Positions 55,287 through 64,000 of a stretch of DNA of 64,000 nt are shown here, in pieces; positions within the stretch are counted from its first letter, which is position 1, and each line of letters begins with the position of its first letter. The position numbers and the translations under genes were made by a program. Under the pieces are notes generated by a model, which saw only the letters and a program-made list of their open reading frames with translations, was not told the origin of the DNA and did no database searches. Source of the stretch: Candidatus Desulfopertinax cowenii (GTDB taxonomy: Bacteria; Bacillota; Desulfotomaculia; Desulfotomaculales; Desulforudaceae); the NCBI GenBank assembly GCA_001899445.1, contig MPOA01000006.1:248001-312000 (forward strand), read 5' to 3'.

Positions 55287-56312
55287 CTAGCAGATACGCG
55301 GTAGGGGAGCGCCGGCCAGCAGATCCAGGTACTTGGTCCCTCCGAGCGCCGTTTTCAGGAACACGTTACCCCCGCCGGCCTTAACCTCGCCGATAATCCG
55401 GGCCTCCCGGCCCAGTTCATCTGCGCGCAAAAGCGTCAGGGCCTTTTCGACCTCCGTGGGCGCAACCACCGCCAGGAATTTCCCTTCGTTCGCCAAGTAC
55501 AGCGGGTCCACGCCCAGCATCTCGGCCGCGCCCTGGACAGCCAGTCCGATCGGGATCTCGGACTCGGACAACCAGATGTCCATCCCGGCGGAAACGGCGA
55601 TTTCCTTGGCCGAGGTGGCCAGCCCACCCCGCGTCAGGTCGCGCATCAACCGGACGCCGCGGCCGAGTTCGTCGAGCAGCCGACCCGTAATCCGGTGCAG
55701 TGCCACGCAGTCGCTGACCACCTGGTCCGCGAAACCGAAACCCTCCCGCGCGGCCAGCACGGCCATGCCGTGGTCGCCCATGTTCCCGTTAACGAGGATC
55801 AGGTCCCCGGGCGCCAGGCGGTGGTAGCCCAGGTCCACGTCGGGCCGGATCAGGCCCACGCCGGTGGTGTTGATGAAGATCTTGTCCAGGTGGCCCCGGC
55901 CCACCACCTTGGTGTCACCGGCCACGACCTGTACCCCGGCCTCCTGGCAGGCTTGGGCCATCGAGGCCACCACCCGGTCCAGATCGGCCAGCGGAAAACC
56001 CTCCTCGATCAAGAAGGCCACCGTAAGGTAGCGGGGTTCGGCCCCGCTCACCGCCAGGTCGTTCACGGTGCCGCAAACGGCCAGCTTGCCGATATCGCCG
56101 CCCGGGAAAAAGGGCGGGTCGATCACGAAGGAATCGGTGGTCACCGCCATCCGGCCCTCCCCGACCGGAAACGCGGCCGCGTCGGTCAACTCCCGGAGCA
56201 GCCGATTTTCAAAGTGGCGCAGGAACAGGCCGGTGACGAGTTCGTGGGTCAGCCGCCCCCCGTCGCCGTGCGCCAGCAGGATTACATCTTCACTCTTATT
56301 GCCCGTCGGCAC
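55287..56312 (-). CDS. hypE: hydrogenase maturation factor HypE (carbamoyl dehydratase)
   Basis: 341 residues. It dehydrates the thiocarbamate on its own C-terminal Cys to thiocyanate, the source of the cyanide ligands of the NiFe site. The C-terminus ends PLPRIC, the conserved PRIC tail. The PurM-like ATP-binding segments LLAHGDGGRLTHELV, MAVTTDSFVIDPPFFPGG and VVAGDTKVVGRGHLDK are present. GTG start at 56312 behind AGAGGGGG. It is separated from hypD by 254 nt holding no gene. Confidence 0.96.
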   Translation of the reverse strand: MPTGNKSEDVILLAHGDGGRLTHELVTGLFLRHFENRLLRELTDAAAFPVGEGRMAVTTDSFVIDPPFFPGGDIGKLAVCGTVNDLAVSGAEPRYLTVAFLIEEGFPLADLDRVVASMAQACQEAGVQVVAGDTKVVGRGHLDKIFINTTGVGLIRPDVDLGYHRLAPGDLILVNGNMGDHGMAVLAAREGFGFADQVVSDCVALHRITGRLLDELGRGVRLMRDLTRGGLATSAKEIAVSAGMDIWLSESEIPIGLAVQGAAEMLGVDPLYLANEGKFLAVVAPTEVEKALTLLRADELGREARIIGEVKAGGGNVFLKTALGGTKYLDLLAGAPLPRIC

Positions 56313-56566
56313 CCCAAGACCCCCTCTACTTATTAACCCATCTCTATCTTAGAAAGCGGTTCCCCAAGAAACACTGGGACAAAAAGTTGTCTTGCCATTT
56401 TCATACCAGCAAGGTACTTGATTTCCATACCCATATGTACTGTAGCCCGGAGGCCGCGAAAAAACAAGCATGGCGCGGAAGGCAAAGTCGGGCGGAGCGT
56501 ACTTGTGGGTACGTGAGCACCGGCCGGCAAGCCTGACAAGGTCAGACGCCGTTTTGCAGCGGCATC

Positions 56567-57679
56567 CTAAGAACTTCTCCGTTCGTACTGGTAGAAGGCA
56601 GCGCACGCGCCTTCGGTCGAAACCATGCACGGACCCACCGGGTGGGTGGGCGTGCAGGCGGTGGCAAACAGCTTGCACTCCCGCGGGGTGAGCTTGCCCT
56701 TCAGGAGATCCCCGCAGCGGCAGCCCTTAGGGATCCGCGGCTCGGCTACCTCGGGCGCAAAACGGACCCGGGCATCGAAATCGCGGTATTCCGGTTTCCA
56801 CTGCAGCCCGCTGCCCGGAATCACCCCGAAGCCCCGCCACGAAACGTCGGTGATTTCAAAAAACTGGTCCAGCAGGGCCTGCGCCCGGAGGTTGCCCGCC
56901 TCCTTCACTACCCGGGTGTACCCGTTCTCCACCCGGGCCTCCCCGGCCAGCACCTGCCGCAGCAGGTTGTACAGCGCATCTAGGATATCCAGCGTTTCAA
57001 AGCCACTGATCACCGACGGCAACCCGTATTCTTCAGCGATAAAGTCGTAAGCCCGCCGCCCAATAATCGCCGAGACGTGACCCGGCAGGATGAACCCGTC
57101 CAGCCGAAGTTCCGGATCGACGAGTAGGGCGTGCAGCGCCGGGGGCACGACCTTGTTGGCCAAAAACACGCTGTAGTTCTTCAGTCCCAGCGCCCGGGCC
57201 TGGGCCACGCTTAGAGCGATAGCCGGCGCCGTGGTCTCGAAACCGACACCCAGGAAGACCATTTCCCGGTCCGGGTTGGCTTCGGCCCACTTCACGGCGT
57301 CGGCCGGGGAGTAAAACACCCTGATGTCCGCCCCCCGGGCCTTTTCCTGTTCCAGCGAAGTCTGGCTGCCGGGTACCCGGACCATGTCACCGAAGGTGCC
57401 CACCGTCACTCCGGGCAGGCGCCCAAAGGCTACCATGGCATCGATATCCCCGTAGTCGGTCACGCAGACCGGGCAGCCCGGACCGCTGCGCAGTTCCAGT
57501 TTCCCGTCCAAGAGACTCCGCAGGCCCGCCTTGGAGATGGCCACCGTGTGGGTACCACAGACCTCCATGAACACCACCCGGCGCCCCAGCTTCTCCTGCG
57601 CCTGTTCCGCCAGCGCCGACACCCGCGCCAGCAGGGCCCGGCCGGTCTCCGGGTCACGAAACCTGTCCAGGATTTGCAT
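56567..57679 (-). CDS. hypD: hydrogenase maturation factor HypD
   Basis: 370-residue [4Fe-4S] scaffold on which, with HypC, the Fe(CN)2CO unit is assembled. Conserved cysteine motifs: FMEVCGTHTVAISKAG, SGPGCPVCVTDYGDID, and the cluster motif GCRCGDLLKGKLTPRECKLF near the C-terminus. VVFLGVGFETTAPAIA-type segment present. Overlaps hypC by 26 nt. Confidence 0.96.
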   Translation of the reverse strand: MQILDRFRDPETGRALLARVSALAEQAQEKLGRRVVFMEVCGTHTVAISKAGLRSLLDGKLELRSGPGCPVCVTDYGDIDAMVAFGRLPGVTVGTFGDMVRVPGSQTSLEQEKARGADIRVFYSPADAVKWAEANPDREMVFLGVGFETTAPAIALSVAQARALGLKNYSVFLANKVVPPALHALLVDPELRLDGFILPGHVSAIIGRRAYDFIAEEYGLPSVISGFETLDILDALYNLLRQVLAGEARVENGYTRVVKEAGNLRAQALLDQFFEITDVSWRGFGVIPGSGLQWKPEYRDFDARVRFAPEVAEPRIPKGCRCGDLLKGKLTPRECKLFATACTPTHPVGPCMVSTEGACAAFYQYERRSS

Positions 57680-57896
57680 CTTTCAAAATCTCCTCCCACA
57701 GCTTGAGCCGGATCTTGGCCTCTTCCACGTCGAGCTTCTCGATGGCGTAGCCGGTGTGCACGATCAGGTACTCGCCGGTCTGCACCTCACCCACCAGGAA
57801 GGTACTGACCTCCCGCTGCACCCCGAAAATCTCGATCACGGCGCTGTCGTTCTCAGGTTTCACTTCCACCACGAGACCCGGAATCCCTAAACACAT
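57654..57896 (-). CDS. hypC: hydrogenase maturation chaperone HypC
   Basis: 80 residues. The start is ATG at 57896 so that the essential Cys is residue 2 (MCLGIPGLVVEV); the frame extends further upstream to 57938. VQTGEYLIVHTGYAIEKLD is the second family motif. HypC carries the iron-cyanide unit from HypD to the large subunit. It overlaps hypF by 10 nt and hypD by 26 nt. Confidence 0.96.
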   Translation of the reverse strand: MCLGIPGLVVEVKPENDSAVIEIFGVQREVSTFLVGEVQTGEYLIVHTGYAIEKLDVEEAKIRLKLWEEILKDANPGQVS

Positions 57897-60187
57897 TGCT
57901 TCCACCTCCGGTACGCTATCACGGCCTGTCCCAGGCACAGGCCCCCGTCGTTGGCCGGCACCTGTCTATGGACCAAAACCCGAAACCCGTCTTCGGGCAG
58001 AGTCTCCCGCGCGCGCCGGAAAAGGTAACGGTTCTGCCAGGTGCCGCCGCTTAAGGCCACGGTTTTCAGCCCCGTGGCCATCCCCACCCGACGCACCGCC
58101 TCTCGCACCATCTCTAGGACGGTGTTGTGGAAACGGGTGGCGATGTGCGCGGCATCCATACCCCGCTCCAGGTCCTTCACCACCCCAGCGATAATGCCGG
58201 CCGCCGAGATCACTCTATCTTTAATTGAATAGGGATAGGGTGGCAGTTCCTGGCCCCGGCCGCCGTCCAGGACTAGTTCACCCAGTTCAATGGCCGCCTG
58301 CCCCTCGTAAGTGCTGCGCGTGCATACGCCGGTCAGTGCGGCCACCGCGTCGAACAGCCGGCCACAGCCGGCGCTTAACGGGGCGTTGAATCCCCGCCTG
58401 ACCATCTGGCACACAATGTCCAGTTCCCGGCCCCGCACACCCAAGAACTGCCCGGCCACCCGTTCGCCCTCCGCACCCAGGTAAGTCAACAGGTAGGCGA
58501 CCGCCGTCCGCCAGGGCTGGCGTACCGCTACCTCACCCCCCGGTAGGGGCACGGGCGCCAGGTGGATCTCCCGCGTGAAATCCAGATAATCCCCGGTGAG
58601 CACCTCGAACCCCCACAGGGTACCGTCCGGGCCGTACCCGGTGCCGTCCAGGATCACCCCGATCGCCCGCTCCTCCAGGCCGTTGTCCGCCAGGCAGGAC
58701 GCCAGGTGGGCGTGGTGATGCTGCACCGCGAACCGGGCCCGCGCCGGCACCTTTTCGGCCAGGCGAGACGAACGGTATTCCGGATGCATGTCGTAACCGA
58801 CGATCTCGGCTTCAATGTCCAGCAGCCGCTGGAAGTTCAGCAGGCTGGAAAGCAGGTTCTCTTCGCCCTCAATGCTGTCGAGCTCGCCGATGTGCTGGCT
58901 CACGAAAGCCCGTCCCTTTTTGAGAAGGCAGAAGGTATTCTTCATTTCGCCGCCGATCCCCAGCACTACCGGCCCGTCCCCGGTGGGAACTGGCACCGGG
59001 GACGGCACGTAGCCCCGCGAGCGACGCAGCAATTGCACTTCCCCGCCCATCACCATCGCCAGTGAGTCGTCACAACGGTTGACGATCTCCCGGTTGTGCC
59101 GGAGAAAATAGTCGGCGATTCCGCCCAATTCCTCCAAGGCCCGGTCGTTGTCCTTGGCCAGGGGTAGTTCGCTGTAGTTCCCGCTGGTCATGACCAGAAG
59201 GTCAAACGACCCGCCGAACAGCAGGAAATGAAGCGGGGTGTACGGCAACATGACCCCCAGGGTCTTCAGTCCCGGGGCCAGCTCACGCGGCAGCCTGACC
59301 TCTGGCCGACGTCGCAGCACCACGATCGGCGCCTGCGGGGAAGTCAATAGTTCACGTTCCACCTGGTCCAGGTGGCAATAGCGCGCCACCGTCTCCAGGT
59401 TCCGGGCCATCACCGCGAACGGCTTGGCGTCGCGGCCCTTGCGCCGGCGCAACTCCCGCAGCGCCTTGGGATTCTTCGCGTCGCAAACCAGGTGAAAACC
59501 ACCCAGGCTCTTCAACGCCAGGATTTTCCCCTGCGCCAGTAAATCCCAGCAGACTTGCGTCCACTCCCCCGGCACCGGCCGGCCCCGGCCGTCCACCAGT
59601 TCCACCGCCGGGCCACAGGCCGGGCAGGCCACCGGCTGGGCGTGGAACCGCCGGTCGGTCGGATCGTGGTACTCCCGAGCGCAAGCCCTGCACATGGGAA
59701 AGGCGGCCATCGAGGTCTTGGGCCGATCGTAGGGCAGTTCCCGAACGATGGTGAACCGCGGCCCGCAGTTGGTGCAGTTGGTAAACGGGTAGCGGTAGTG
59801 CCGATCGGCCGGATCGAAGGTCTCCCGGGCACAAGCCCTGCACAACCCCACGTCCGGAGGCACCAGGGCTTCGACCTCCTCGCCGCCCTGGCTCGCGATA
59901 ATCTCAAAACCGGTATAACCCACCGGGGGCAGGGACTCCCAGGTCACTTCTTCCACCCGGGCCAGCCGCGGCGGCCTCCCCCGCACTTCTTCCAGGAAAC
60001 CGTGTACGGCCACCGCCGACCCCTCGGCATCCACGATCACCCCCCGGCCCGCGTTCAGCACGCTGCCGCGGATACCGTGGGACCGAGCCAGATTATAAAT
60101 GAAGGGGCGGAAACCGACGCCCTGGACGGTGCCCCGGACCGTTATCCGGTAGCGGACCGCTTTTTCCGCACGATCTCCCTGAGCCAT
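57887..60187 (-). CDS. hypF: hydrogenase maturation carbamoyltransferase HypF
   Basis: About 766 residues; makes carbamoyl-AMP from carbamoyl phosphate and passes it to HypE. Domains: acylphosphatase (about 10-100, TVRGTVQGVGFRPFIYNLA), two zinc-finger repeats (CRACARETFDPADRHYRYP; CRACAREYHDPTDRRFH), YrdC-like (about 205-390) and Kae1-like (about 400-765, HHHAHLASCLADNGLEERA; ALSGGTWQNRYLF). ATG at 60187 has GAGGGG 9 nt upstream; GTG at 60196 would overlap that site. It overlaps hypB. Confidence 0.96.
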   Translation of the reverse strand: MAQGDRAEKAVRYRITVRGTVQGVGFRPFIYNLARSHGIRGSVLNAGRGVIVDAEGSAVAVHGFLEEVRGRPPRLARVEEVTWESLPPVGYTGFEIIASQGGEEVEALVPPDVGLCRACARETFDPADRHYRYPFTNCTNCGPRFTIVRELPYDRPKTSMAAFPMCRACAREYHDPTDRRFHAQPVACPACGPAVELVDGRGRPVPGEWTQVCWDLLAQGKILALKSLGGFHLVCDAKNPKALRELRRRKGRDAKPFAVMARNLETVARYCHLDQVERELLTSPQAPIVVLRRRPEVRLPRELAPGLKTLGVMLPYTPLHFLLFGGSFDLLVMTSGNYSELPLAKDNDRALEELGGIADYFLRHNREIVNRCDDSLAMVMGGEVQLLRRSRGYVPSPVPVPTGDGPVVLGIGGEMKNTFCLLKKGRAFVSQHIGELDSIEGEENLLSSLLNFQRLLDIEAEIVGYDMHPEYRSSRLAEKVPARARFAVQHHHAHLASCLADNGLEERAIGVILDGTGYGPDGTLWGFEVLTGDYLDFTREIHLAPVPLPGGEVAVRQPWRTAVAYLLTYLGAEGERVAGQFLGVRGRELDIVCQMVRRGFNAPLSAGCGRLFDAVAALTGVCTRSTYEGQAAIELGELVLDGGRGQELPPYPYSIKDRVISAAGIIAGVVKDLERGMDAAHIATRFHNTVLEMVREAVRRVGMATGLKTVALSGGTWQNRYLFRRARETLPEDGFRVLVHRQVPANDGGLCLGQAVIAYRRWKQCV

Positions 60188-60801
60188 GCGTACCACCCCT
60201 CTGTCCCCTCGCCGGTGGCGGCCGAAGTCACGAAAATAAGGATGTCCGGATTGATCGTCCGGATCTCCTCCTGCACCTTATTTATATCAAAATCGGTATA
60301 CGCAAGCAAATCGCTCTTGTTAATCACCACCGCCTGGGACTCCCGGAACACCAGCGGGTACTTAACCGGCTTGTCGCCCCCCTCGGCCACACTCAAAAGG
60401 GCGACTTTGTAGTCCTCGCCCAGGTCGAACTCCGCCGGGCAGACCAGGTTGCCGACGTTTTCGATGAACAGAAGGTCCAGACCGGCCAGATCCAACTGGT
60501 CGAGCGCCCGGCCCACCATGTTTGCGTCCAGGTGACAAAGCCCCGCGGTGTTTACCTGTACCACCGCGGCACCCTGGCCGGCGATCCGCTCGGCGTCGCG
60601 GGTGGTGTAAATGTCCCCCTCGATCACCCCGACGTTGACCTCACCCCGTAGGGCCTGGATCGTCCTCTCCAGCAAGGTGGTTTTCCCCGCTCCCGGGGAG
60701 CTGATCAGGTTGACGGTCGGGAGATGCTTAAGCCGTTCCCGATTTTCACGGGCCACCTGTTCGTTCGCCCGCAGAATCTTCTGGGCCATCACTACCTTCA
60801 C
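60142..60801 (-). CDS. hypB: hydrogenase nickel-incorporation GTPase HypB
   Basis: About 219 residues. P-loop NLISSPGAGKTTLLERTI, switch and metal region VIEGDIYTTRDAERI and AGLCHLDANMV, guanine-specificity motif VVINKSDLLAY. No His-rich N-terminal nickel store. GTG at 60801 is 6 nt after AAAGGAGG; ATG at 60807 lies directly against that site. It overlaps the hypA 3' end by about 55 nt. HypA and HypB load nickel after the iron unit is in place. Confidence 0.95.
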   Translation of the reverse strand: MKVVMAQKILRANEQVARENRERLKHLPTVNLISSPGAGKTTLLERTIQALRGEVNVGVIEGDIYTTRDAERIAGQGAAVVQVNTAGLCHLDANMVGRALDQLDLAGLDLLFIENVGNLVCPAEFDLGEDYKVALLSVAEGGDKPVKYPLVFRESQAVVINKSDLLAYTDFDINKVQEEIRTINPDILIFVTSAATGEGTEGWYAWLREIVRKKRSATG

Positions 60802-61156
60802 CGGCATCCTCCTTTCCATCGTCGCCTTCAAAGTAATCTATGTACAGCTCCTGCCCGGAAACGATTTCGGCGCGGCCGCCGCATTTCGGGCAGAAGTACG
60901 CCAGTTCCTCGCTCTCCGACTCCGCACCGCATTGCGGGCACCTCAAGGTGACGGGCACGGACTCGATCTCCAGCCGGGCACCCTCGAACATGGTTCCCGG
61001 GGCCAGGACAGAAAACGCAAACTCCAACGCGTCGGGAATCGCGCCGTTCAACCGGCCAACCACCAAACGCACCCTGGTTACCCGCTCAATGTTATTGGCC
61101 CCGGCCACGCGGGAGATTTCATTCATCACGGTTTGGATCAGTCCGACTTCGTGCAC
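60746..61156 (-). CDS. hypA: hydrogenase nickel-incorporation protein HypA
   Basis: 136 residues. GTG at 61156 makes the nickel-binding His residue 2 (VHEVGLIQTVMNEI), as in all HypA proteins; the frame extends upstream only by chance. The zinc site is CPQCGAESESEELAYFCPKC. The last 25 or so residues, after the canonical end near YIDYFEGDD, form an acidic low-complexity tail that overlaps the start of hypB. GGAGGGGG precedes the start. Cooperates with HypB. Confidence 0.94.
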   Translation of the reverse strand: MHEVGLIQTVMNEISRVAGANNIERVTRVRLVVGRLNGAIPDALEFAFSVLAPGTMFEGARLEIESVPVTLRCPQCGAESESEELAYFCPKCGGRAEIVSGQELYIDYFEGDDGKEDAGEGSDGPEDSAGERTGGP

Positions 61157-61644
61157 TCGCCCGCCCCCTCCAGCCAGCACCGCACTTCCCGGCGCACGGC
61201 CTCGACCGCCCGCGGGACAGCCCCGGACACTGCGGGGTCCAGACCCATGTGCCACGGTTCCACGTTGGCGACCGTAATCCCGATGATCACCACTTCGTCC
61301 GGTAAGCCCTCCGGCATGGACTTTCGCCCAAATTCCAAGGCGTCCCGGATCCCGATGTCGTGCACCGACAGTGGCGGCGCCTCCTTGCGGGGTACGTCCT
61401 CCTCCCGCCAGCGAAGCACCTGTCCGGGCGGTATTCCTTCCGCCAGCACGGCGTCGATGATCACCGCCTTGTCGCTCCCGAACATCAGGTCCAGCATCCC
61501 CAGCCCCGGGGCACCGGCTTCATACAGGGTCACTCCGGCCGGCAGCGGTTCTTTCTCCAGTTCCCGCAGCACCTCGATCCCAACGGCGTCATCGCCGGCA
61601 AAAATATTGCCGCATCCCAGGATCACGATCTTACAGTCAGCCAA
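61138..61644 (-). CDS. hydrogenase maturation endopeptidase (HyaD/HycI family)
   Basis: 168 residues. IVILGCGNIFAGDDAVGIEV holds the conserved GN..(A)GDD motif with the nickel-binding acid, VIIDAVLAEG the second Asp and LSVHDIGIRDALEF the His. These proteases remove the C-terminal tail of the large subunit once nickel is bound. The gene lies between the hydrogenase and hypA, so it most likely processes the large subunit encoded at 61841-63304, whose tail of 26 residues after DPCFSCATH is intact. TTG start at 61644. It overlaps hypA by 19 nt. Confidence 0.93.
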   Translation of the reverse strand: MADCKIVILGCGNIFAGDDAVGIEVLRELEKEPLPAGVTLYEAGAPGLGMLDLMFGSDKAVIIDAVLAEGIPPGQVLRWREEDVPRKEAPPLSVHDIGIRDALEFGRKSMPEGLPDEVVIIGITVANVEPWHMGLDPAVSGAVPRAVEAVRREVRCWLEGAGECTKSD

Positions 61645-61840: not shown

Positions 61841-63304
61841 TTACTCCCTGCTGAGGGTCTTCACTAGTTCGCCTTTGTGGTCGTAAATGTTGACCTTCAG
61901 CGGCAGTTCGCCCAGGATGGCGTGGGTCGCGCAGCTAAAGCACGGGTCGTAAGCCCGGAAGGCCATCTCTACCATGTTCAACACTCCGTTGGTGATTTCC
62001 ATCCCTGGTTTGATGACCGAGCTGGCCGCTTTCTTAATGGCCATGGAGATCGGGGCGTTGTTGTTGGTGGTGCCCACGATCAGGTTGGCCTTCACCACGA
62101 TGCCGTTGGCGTCGGTGGCGTAGTGGTGAGTCAGAGTACCGCGCGGCGCCTCCACGATGCCGACGCCTTCCTCCGGCGACCCGGTCGGGATGTTCCGGAT
62201 GTCCGGGCTGGTAACCTCCTCGTCCTGCGCCAGTTCCAGCAGACGCTCGGCCGCGTACATCAGCTCTACCAGCCGCGCCCAGTGGGTGGCCAGCACGGCA
62301 TGCACCGGACGACCGCCCAGAGTCGAGAAGAACTTCTCGTAAGCCTCCTGCGCCAGCGGGGTGGCCATGCCGTCGCAGGCGTTAATCCGACCCAGCGGGG
62401 CCGCCTGGTAGATCGCGGTACCCGGCCCCTCAGTGAAACCGGTCCAGCCAAACTTCTTCAGGTACGGGTATTTCAAGTAGCTGTAAGGCTCCACGTGCTC
62501 GGCCACGTAGTCCACGTATTCCCGCGGCGAGTACTTGAACAGTTCCTTGCCCTCGGTGTCCACCACGCGGACCTTGCCGTCGTAGAAATTAATCTTGTTG
62601 TTCTCGTCCACTAGGCCCATGTAGTTGGTGACCAGCTTGTAGGTGTCGCCCAGGATCAGTTCCACGTAGGCCTGGTTCTTCAACACCACGTCGTCGAACA
62701 GCTTCAGGGAGAACTTGGCGAACTCCACGCAGGACTTGGCCATCTCCTCGACCTGCTTGCGCTCCTCCCCGGTGAGTCCCTTGCTCACGCCGCCGGGAAG
62801 CGTCCAGGCCGGGTGGGTAGCCTTGCCGCCCAGCATCGCCTGAATCTGCTGCGCGTACGCCCGGTGCTTGATCACCTCGCCGCCGATCTCCAAGCCCACT
62901 TTCTCGATCACGCCCAAGACGTTACGGACGGCCGGGTCGGCGTCCGGGCCCAGCACGAAGTCCGGCGCCGCCAGGGCGTAAAAGTGGGCGATGTGGCTGT
63001 GCACAAAGTGCGCACTGTAAAATAGCTCCCGCAGCTTCTTTGCCGCCGGTGTCGGCTCCACACCGAACACCATGTCCATGGCCTTACCCGAGGCCAAATG
63101 GTGCGCGCTGGGTCAGACGCCACAGATGCGGCTTACAATCTGCGGGACTTCCTCAGCCGGACGGCCCTCGCAGAACTTCTCGAAACCACGTAGCTCCGGA
63201 ATCTGAAAGTAGCAGTTTTCAACGGCCCCCGAATCGTCCAGGAAGATCTCGATCCTCCCGTGACCCTCAAGCCTGGTGATGGGATCAATGGTAATCCTCT
63301 TCAC
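61841..63304 (-). CDS. NiFe(Se) hydrogenase large subunit (MvhA/group 3c-like) with in-frame TGA read as selenocysteine
   Basis: 487 residues if the TGA at 63113-63115 is translated. The N-terminus (KRITIDPITRLEGHGRIEIF; IPELRGFEKFCEGRPAEEV) is group 3c-like. The N-terminal nickel motif reads RICGV-TGA-PSAHH: Cys61 is present and codon 64, always Cys in ordinary enzymes, is TGA. The same frame continues unbroken to the C-terminal motif AYDPCFSCATH (Cys455, Cys458) and a 26-residue tail for the endopeptidase. A hairpin fitting a bacterial SECIS follows the TGA. A nonsense mutation or sequence error is the alternative. GTG start behind AAGGAGGG; the small-subunit stop abuts it. Confidence 0.85.
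63076..63101 (-). promoter_or_regulatory. candidate bacterial SECIS element
   Basis: In the mRNA, beginning 11 nt after the TGA: lower stem CCAT/ATGG, a TT bulge on the 5' side, upper stem GGCCT/AGGCC, and apical loop CGGGTA. The loop starts 22 nt after the TGA and has G at its second position. This fits the usual criteria for bacterial SECIS hairpins. Confidence 0.7.
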
Positions 63305-64000
63305 TTACTTTGCCCTCCTTAATAGCGACCCGGGCAGACCATAGCGGTAGAAAGTGCCCGCCGGATCGACTATCTCGCTGATTATCCGGTCGGCCTCTTC
63401 GGGGGTGTCGGCGTCCACGACCGAGGCCAGCGCCGAGATGTATTTGGCGCCCTGGTCGATCACGCCGTCAACTGGCCCGTAGCAGCCGCGGCACGGCAAG
63501 TTGGCGCTGGTGCACTGGTTGCCACAGCCGGCTCTGGTCACCGGGCCCATGCAGGTCAGGCCCTGCTCCAGGAGACACTTCTTGGGATCCACCATGATTT
63601 CGTGGGGCCGGTAGAATTTCTTGACCTTCTTCTCGGTCTTCTCCCGTTCACATTCGTCGCACATGGTCTTGTTGGAACAGCCGACGAACGCACCCTTGGG
63701 CGGCAGGTTACCGGAAGCGATGACCTGGATAACCGCCCAGACCTGGGTCGCCGTCGGCGGACAACCCGGCATAAAGTAGTCCACGTCCACGACGTCGGCC
63801 AAACACTTGACTTCTTTGTAGAATTCGGGGAGTTCCAGCTCACCCTCGAGCACCTGGTACCTGGTCACGGGGAAAACCCGCTCGGGGTTTTGGGTGGAAT
63901 CGCTCTGGATGTAAACCCGGTCCAGGATGTCGTCCCGGCGCTTGAAGTTGGCGAGCCCCGGAATACCGCCCGCAATCGCGCAGCTGCCGAAGGCCACCAG
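63305..64000 (-). CDS. NiFe hydrogenase small subunit (MvhG-like), partial (5' end outside window)
   Basis: About 231 residues are visible; the start lies beyond the right edge. VAFGSCAIAGGIPGLANF, DYFMPGCPPTATQVW and the later cysteines (CLLEQGLTCMGPVTRAGC; CTSANLPCRGCYGPVDG) supply [4Fe-4S] ligands as in F420-non-reducing (Mvh/group 3c-type) small subunits. It transfers electrons from the NiFe site towards a partner, in Mvh systems MvhD and heterodisulfide-reductase-like proteins, which would be expected just outside this window. Its stop abuts the large-subunit start. Confidence 0.93.
   Translation of the reverse strand: MVAFGSCAIAGGIPGLANFKRRDDILDRVYIQSDSTQNPERVFPVTRYQVLEGELELPEFYKEVKCLADVVDVDYFMPGCPPTATQVWAVIQVIASGNLPPKGAFVGCSNKTMCDECEREKTEKKVKKFYRPHEIMVDPKKCLLEQGLTCMGPVTRAGCGNQCTSANLPCRGCYGPVDGVIDQGAKYISALASVVDADTPEEADRIISEIVDPAGTFYRYGLPGSLLRRAK

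Follow-up and report, generated by a model that had tools for sequence, protein, structure and literature searches.

The window analysed here is a 64,000-nt stretch of DNA (contig C6, positions 248001-312000) from a genome of 1.78 Mb; Desulforudis sp. Kmv41 and Firmicutes UBA3572 are among the nearest relatives that have a name. On its minus strand lies the gene for an mvhA-type hydrogenase large subunit, whose frame contains one internal TGA and is otherwise open (Table 1). The genes are arranged in the order mvhD-mvhG-mvhA, followed by a putative hydrogenase protease and putative hyp maturation genes, all assigned by reading of the sequence. An in-frame UGA is present in mvhD as well as in mvhA, and the operon therefore contains two UGA-containing genes. 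In the flank directly upstream of mvhD in locus L009, sequence reading revealed no hdr genes. Part of the hypE-like sequence also matches the selD model weakly (C6:303458-304186).

Table 1. Genes and features of the hydrogenase locus, with related loci named in the text; positions are those of the window unless a locus or contig is given.
Feature	Position	Strand	Details and basis
mvhA-type (group 3c) [NiFe]-hydrogenase large subunit	61841..63304	minus	487 aa, GTG start, UGA codon 64 read through
Ni-site residues of MvhA	C61, U64, C455, C458		
Predicted Sec codon (UGA, codon 64)	63113..63115	minus	second Cys position of L1 motif RICGV-U-P; alignments
Candidate bSECIS core, 6-bp stem UGGCCU/AGGCCA with 6-nt loop	63079..63096	minus	-8.5 kcal/mol, 22 nt from UGA
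Apical loop CGGGUA	63085..63090	minus	alignment and bSECIS consensus
mvhG-type small subunit	63305..64000, continuing past the window end to about contig position 312259	minus	NCBIfam VhuG match, E 6e-68
mvhD with in-frame UGA (VAGUHPGDCHY)	L009:3261-3791, just past the window end		adjoins the mvhG-mvhA group
Probable hydrogenase maturation endopeptidase (HycI/HyaD type)	61138..61644	minus	sequence reading
hypA/hypB-type Ni-insertion genes	60142..61255	minus	sequence reading
hypF, hypC, hypD and hypE-type maturation genes	55287..60196	minus	sequence reading
selD, itself UGA-containing (GGGUAAK)	L137, G000:C1:148504-149424		
Second, group 1 hydrogenase large subunit	L045, G000:C1:195500-202000, ORF start 3724	minus	about 482 aa

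The best solved relative of the read-through protein is chain F of 5ODC, the MvhA of M. thermolithotrophicus (E 3e-119). An AlphaFold2 model built from the window and locus sequences, with Sec entered as Cys, had a pLDDT of 85.6, and the top Foldseek match of the modelled MvhA was the same chain (5odc_F, TM 0.88). Against the archaeal VhuA equivalog the protein scored 430 bits, which is under the curated cut-off of 800. Its membership of group 3c (MvhA) is indicated by this relationship in sequence and fold and by the neighbouring MvhD and MvhG.

UGA-containing mvhA genes are found well beyond the window. In a set of 60 genomes that includes the window's own, a single TGA sits at the same codon in 14 mvhA orthologues, and those of the 13 related genomes are 73-95% identical to the window's over the whole protein. 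An order-wide motif scan of 113 genomes, in which TGA, TGC or TGT was allowed at the first codon, returned 17 matches, one per genome and all with TGA, while the reversed-pattern control returned none. A scan of named genomes brought further UGA-containing mvhA genes, from Latescibacterota, Acidobacteriota, Krumholzibacteriota, Chloroflexota (Dehalococcoidia), KSB1, UBP1 and Moorellales-type Bacillota. A search of plasmids returned distant hydrogenases only.

Downstream of the UGA, and inside the mvhA coding region, lies a short hairpin. The model of bacterial SECIS (bSECIS) elements specifies an apical loop of 3-9 nt in which one of the first two bases is G and the next base is usually G or U, a stem of 4-16 bp, a spacing of 16-37 nt and an energy of -7.5 kcal/mol or lower (PMC13188914). 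The window hairpin lies within all of these limits, with a 6-nt loop that opens C-G-G and with the stem length, spacing and energy given in Table 1. The TGA, the upper stem GGCCT/AGGCC, the 6-nt loop CGGGTA and the 22-nt spacing described in the original prediction were all found on the minus strand, and the general rules that it named (a place in the coding region, an apical loop about 16-37 nt past the UGA, and an early loop G) hold for this hairpin. Fold energy was rejected as evidence for a SECIS element, as the local fold z-score is -0.31 and similar hairpins are numerous in this GC-rich background. In seven nearby minus-strand genes, loose bSECIS rules are passed by 12% of codons, and an equally good hairpin (G[G/T] loop, -8.5 kcal/mol or lower) occurs at 4.5% of codons. 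A search of the whole window with Rfam at gathering thresholds returned three tRNAs only. The hairpin stands above chance because of its conservation, not because of its fold.

This conservation was measured by aligning 24 UGA genes and 56 Cys genes of the mvhA type codon by codon. In the UGA genes, codons +7 to +11 are almost fixed as Ala GCC, Ser TCG, Gly GGT, Lys AAG and Ala GCC; the codon identities among same-residue pairs are 0.92, 1.00, 0.99, 0.92 and 1.00, compared with a gene mean of 0.50 in the UGA set, and windows over these codons rank first in the gene. In the 56 Cys genes the identity of the same codons is 0.26-0.52, which is ordinary for that set (mean 0.40). The codons are thus fixed where the UGA is present and ordinary where it is not, and it is therefore the RNA that is constrained, in connection with the UGA. 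The 6-bp stem together with a G[G/U] loop occurs in all 24 UGA genes versus one of the 56 Cys genes, and the 5-bp stem with such a loop in all 24 versus two of the 56. The contrast in stem and loop gives a Fisher p of 2e-18, a value that is indicative only, since the sequences are related.

The same comparison bears on the possibility that the hairpin is a by-product of codon constraint on the active-site peptide HHxASGKA. The conserved peptide A-S-x-K-A can be encoded as GGCCT...AGGCC, so that part of the upper stem is latent in it, and a 5-bp stem is found in 14 of the 56 Cys genes. However, 12 of those 14 lack the G[G/U] loop, and the mixed codons of the Cys genes stand against the almost fixed GCC-TCG-GGT-AAG-GCC of the Sec genes. 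Codon constraint alone is therefore a very improbable source of the hairpin. Some Cys orthologues, such as L062, L065, L081 and L103, thus already hold GGCCT/AGGCC as a latent 5-bp stem by way of A-S-x-K-A, and such a latent stem is a possible route for the repeated origin of SECIS elements.

In a covariation alignment of 23 distinct UGA rows, all six stem positions are paired in every row (100% of cells), compared with about 51% or less in slid-register controls. The stem that is kept throughout is U-GGCCU/AGGCC-A, in which the basal pair (20-37) may be U-A, U-G or C-G. Pair 24-33 is U-A in the KSB1 sequence L098 and C-G in all other rows. Compensatory changes are thus present in two of the six pairs, a level also reached by 6 of 500 shuffles, and the covariation comes from few changes, with both sides altered in two sequence cells. 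The core of the window element is almost invariant across phyla. Loop base 2 is an invariant G and base 3 is G, or U in Dehalococcoidia, which matches the G[G/U] consensus; the loops of the relatives read CGUGUA or CGUGCA.

The original prediction had called for stem covariation to be compared between TGA and Cys orthologues, and the outcome, with compensatory pairs in the TGA set and the stem and loop rare among Cys genes, bears it out. The stem is not equally kept in Cys orthologues, nor is it absent from other TGA relatives, as it was present in all those examined, distant phyla included. The part of the structure below this core fared differently. The letters of the lower CCAT/ATGG stem and the TT bulge are present in the window, but the lower stem is broken in many relatives, with the C-G pair missing in 16 of 23 and the next two pairs missing in 5-6 of 23. 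The lower stem is not maintained, and the suggested likeness to the bulged U of E. coli fdhF, which involves a conserved lower stem below the bulge, is therefore not supported.

The machinery for Sec insertion is present in the window's genome, which encodes a tRNA-Sec (detected by ARAGORN), selB, selA adjoining selB, and selD. Among relatives, selB was found in 16 of 17 checked, the exception being a 57%-complete genome, and in 9 of 11 distant ones. Two MAGs with UGA genes (L064 and L067) gave no selB match above the cut-off, and selA is present in both. L067 (CP070645.1), a single-contig Dehalococcoidales MAG, combines a UGA mvhA, the loop CGUGCA and an intact selA with a selB fragment (residues 2-55) that directly adjoins selA and may reflect either a sequencing indel or decay.

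The frame downstream of the UGA is conserved, and the codon must therefore be read through in some way. In principle, the UGA could be read as another amino acid by a suppressor tRNA or a reassigned code, or be bypassed by another form of recoding, without Sec. Such readthrough would agree with the conserved frame, but it is hardly credible given that all 56 non-UGA orthologues have Cys at the position, that tRNA-Sec, selA, selB and selD are present, and that the occurrence of a SECIS-type hairpin goes with the UGA. A nonsense mutation or sequencing error, leaving a pseudogene cut at codon 64 beside a chance hairpin, is just as hard to believe: although such a hairpin follows about 4.5% of codons, the TGA is common to 24 distinct orthologues, the 400+ downstream codons are intact and conserved, and the hairpin is under synonymous constraint.

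Judged from the sequences compared here, the hairpin at 63096-63079 almost certainly works as a bacterial SECIS element and serves UGA codon 64 of mvhA. SelB carrying Sec-tRNA-Sec would bind the G[G/U] apical loop and the 6-bp stem, and the UGA located 22 nt upstream of the loop would be decoded as selenocysteine. The product would be a full-length group 3c large subunit with Sec64 as the second L1 ligand, whose selenium, by homology with Cys84 of D. vulgaris Miyazaki, would bridge Ni and Fe. The SECIS mechanism itself is already known, and what is noteworthy is the position of the Sec residue; any advantage of Sec at L1 is something that we infer.

Sec and Cys appear to have been exchanged repeatedly at this position. 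On a protein tree of 80 rows, built by a quick method with the Sec residue masked, seven Sec/Cys changes are needed, of which at least four are forced by starred (well-supported) branches. The Sec genes of Dehalococcoidia nest among Cys genes, and the Cys genes L028 and L029, which have no hairpin and occur in genomes having selB, lie among Sec genes. In Krumholzibacteriota, L068 (L068:2741-2776), one of the exceptional Cys genes that have both stem and loop, has TGC at the Sec position and keeps the whole GGCCTCGGGTAAGGCC core, and its neighbours on the tree are UGA genes. Sec was probably exchanged for Cys recently in this gene, leaving a fossil SECIS, or else it is an intermediate, and as a Cys gene with an intact SECIS it offers a view of Sec/Cys exchange.

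The window's genome also encodes a group 1 hydrogenase (L045) whose large subunit, like MvhA, has its UGA at the second L1 cysteine and Cys in the C-terminal motif, and the same arrangement is found in the eight relatives examined. L045 scores 719 bits against NCBIfam NiFeSe_hydrog, above the cut-off of 600, and its small subunit has a twin-arginine-like start. The nucleotides CACGGCATCAGTTCGGTGCTA are invariant after the UGA in L045 and these eight relatives. Its hairpin differs from that of mvhA and is weaker by a simple model (-5.8 kcal/mol). Separately, one related genome (L053, G023:C89) contains a classical C-terminal DPU [NiFeSe]-type gene along with a Cys mvhA.

The predicted Sec64 takes the second place in the L1 pair, C61-G-V-U64, and both residues of the C-terminal pair, DPC455-FSC458, are Cys. 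With DPCFSC as its C-terminal motif and Sec in L1, the window protein was set apart from the classical [NiFeSe] hydrogenases. In D. vulgaris Miyazaki F, Cys81 and Cys546 are the terminal ligands, and the classical [NiFeSe] enzymes have Sec at the equivalent of Cys546. The other two cysteines of the same enzyme, Cys84 (the second of L1) and Cys549, bridge Ni and Fe (PMC12117559). Residues 4-118 of the window protein align with residues 25-138 of 1H2A, and residue 64 would be the equivalent of Cys84 if the one-residue gap in this alignment falls upstream of it.

Two selenoprotein reviews list hydrogenase alpha subunits with a UxxC motif only (PMC9312934, PMC13188914). In the reviewed [NiFeSe] hydrogenases, Sec is confined to the C-terminal UxxC, where it is a terminal Ni ligand, and this has been invoked for H2 production and recovery from O2. 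A literature search on bridging selenocysteine or selenolate and hydrogenase found no paper, and an earlier report of Sec at L1 may still exist. We consider it likely that the genes described here represent widespread, uncatalogued natural selenium hydrogenases, in which Se replaces the sulfur of the bridging L1 Cys between Ni and Fe, and that the trait has been gained or lost several times in group 3c and extends to periplasmic-type enzymes of group 1 in these bacteria. If so, bridging-ligand Sec, spread over two groups of hydrogenases and several phyla, would provide natural tests of selenium at a different position of the Ni site. Hydrogenases whose genes automatic annotation may truncate at the UGA or label as pseudogenes would come to light as well, those of deep-subsurface Desulforudis relatives among others.

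The window element resembles known bSECIS elements in its in-frame site just 3' of the UGA and in its stem, spacing and energy (PMC13188914). The E. coli fdhF element has a lower stem and a bulged U, whereas the window element is without conserved ones. At the level of the operon, the archaeal 5ODC complex (group 3c MvhADG, linked to Hdr) has the same gene order, but Cys rather than Sec at the L1 position. The [NiFeSe] HysA of Desulfovibrio and Desulfomicrobium and the VhuU/FruA of methanogens likewise have Sec among the four Cys-type Ni ligands. In these proteins, however, Sec comes first in the C-terminal DPUxxC and is a terminal ligand, whereas the window protein has Cys455 there and its Sec as the second residue of the N-terminal CxxC. 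In E. coli Hyd-1 and Hyd-2, every Ni cysteine has been exchanged in turn for Sec by engineering (PMC13111528), and a perspective reports that H2 oxidation was reduced at every position (PMC9961374). Judging from the motif, one position engineered in these laboratory variants would correspond to the natural Sec64.
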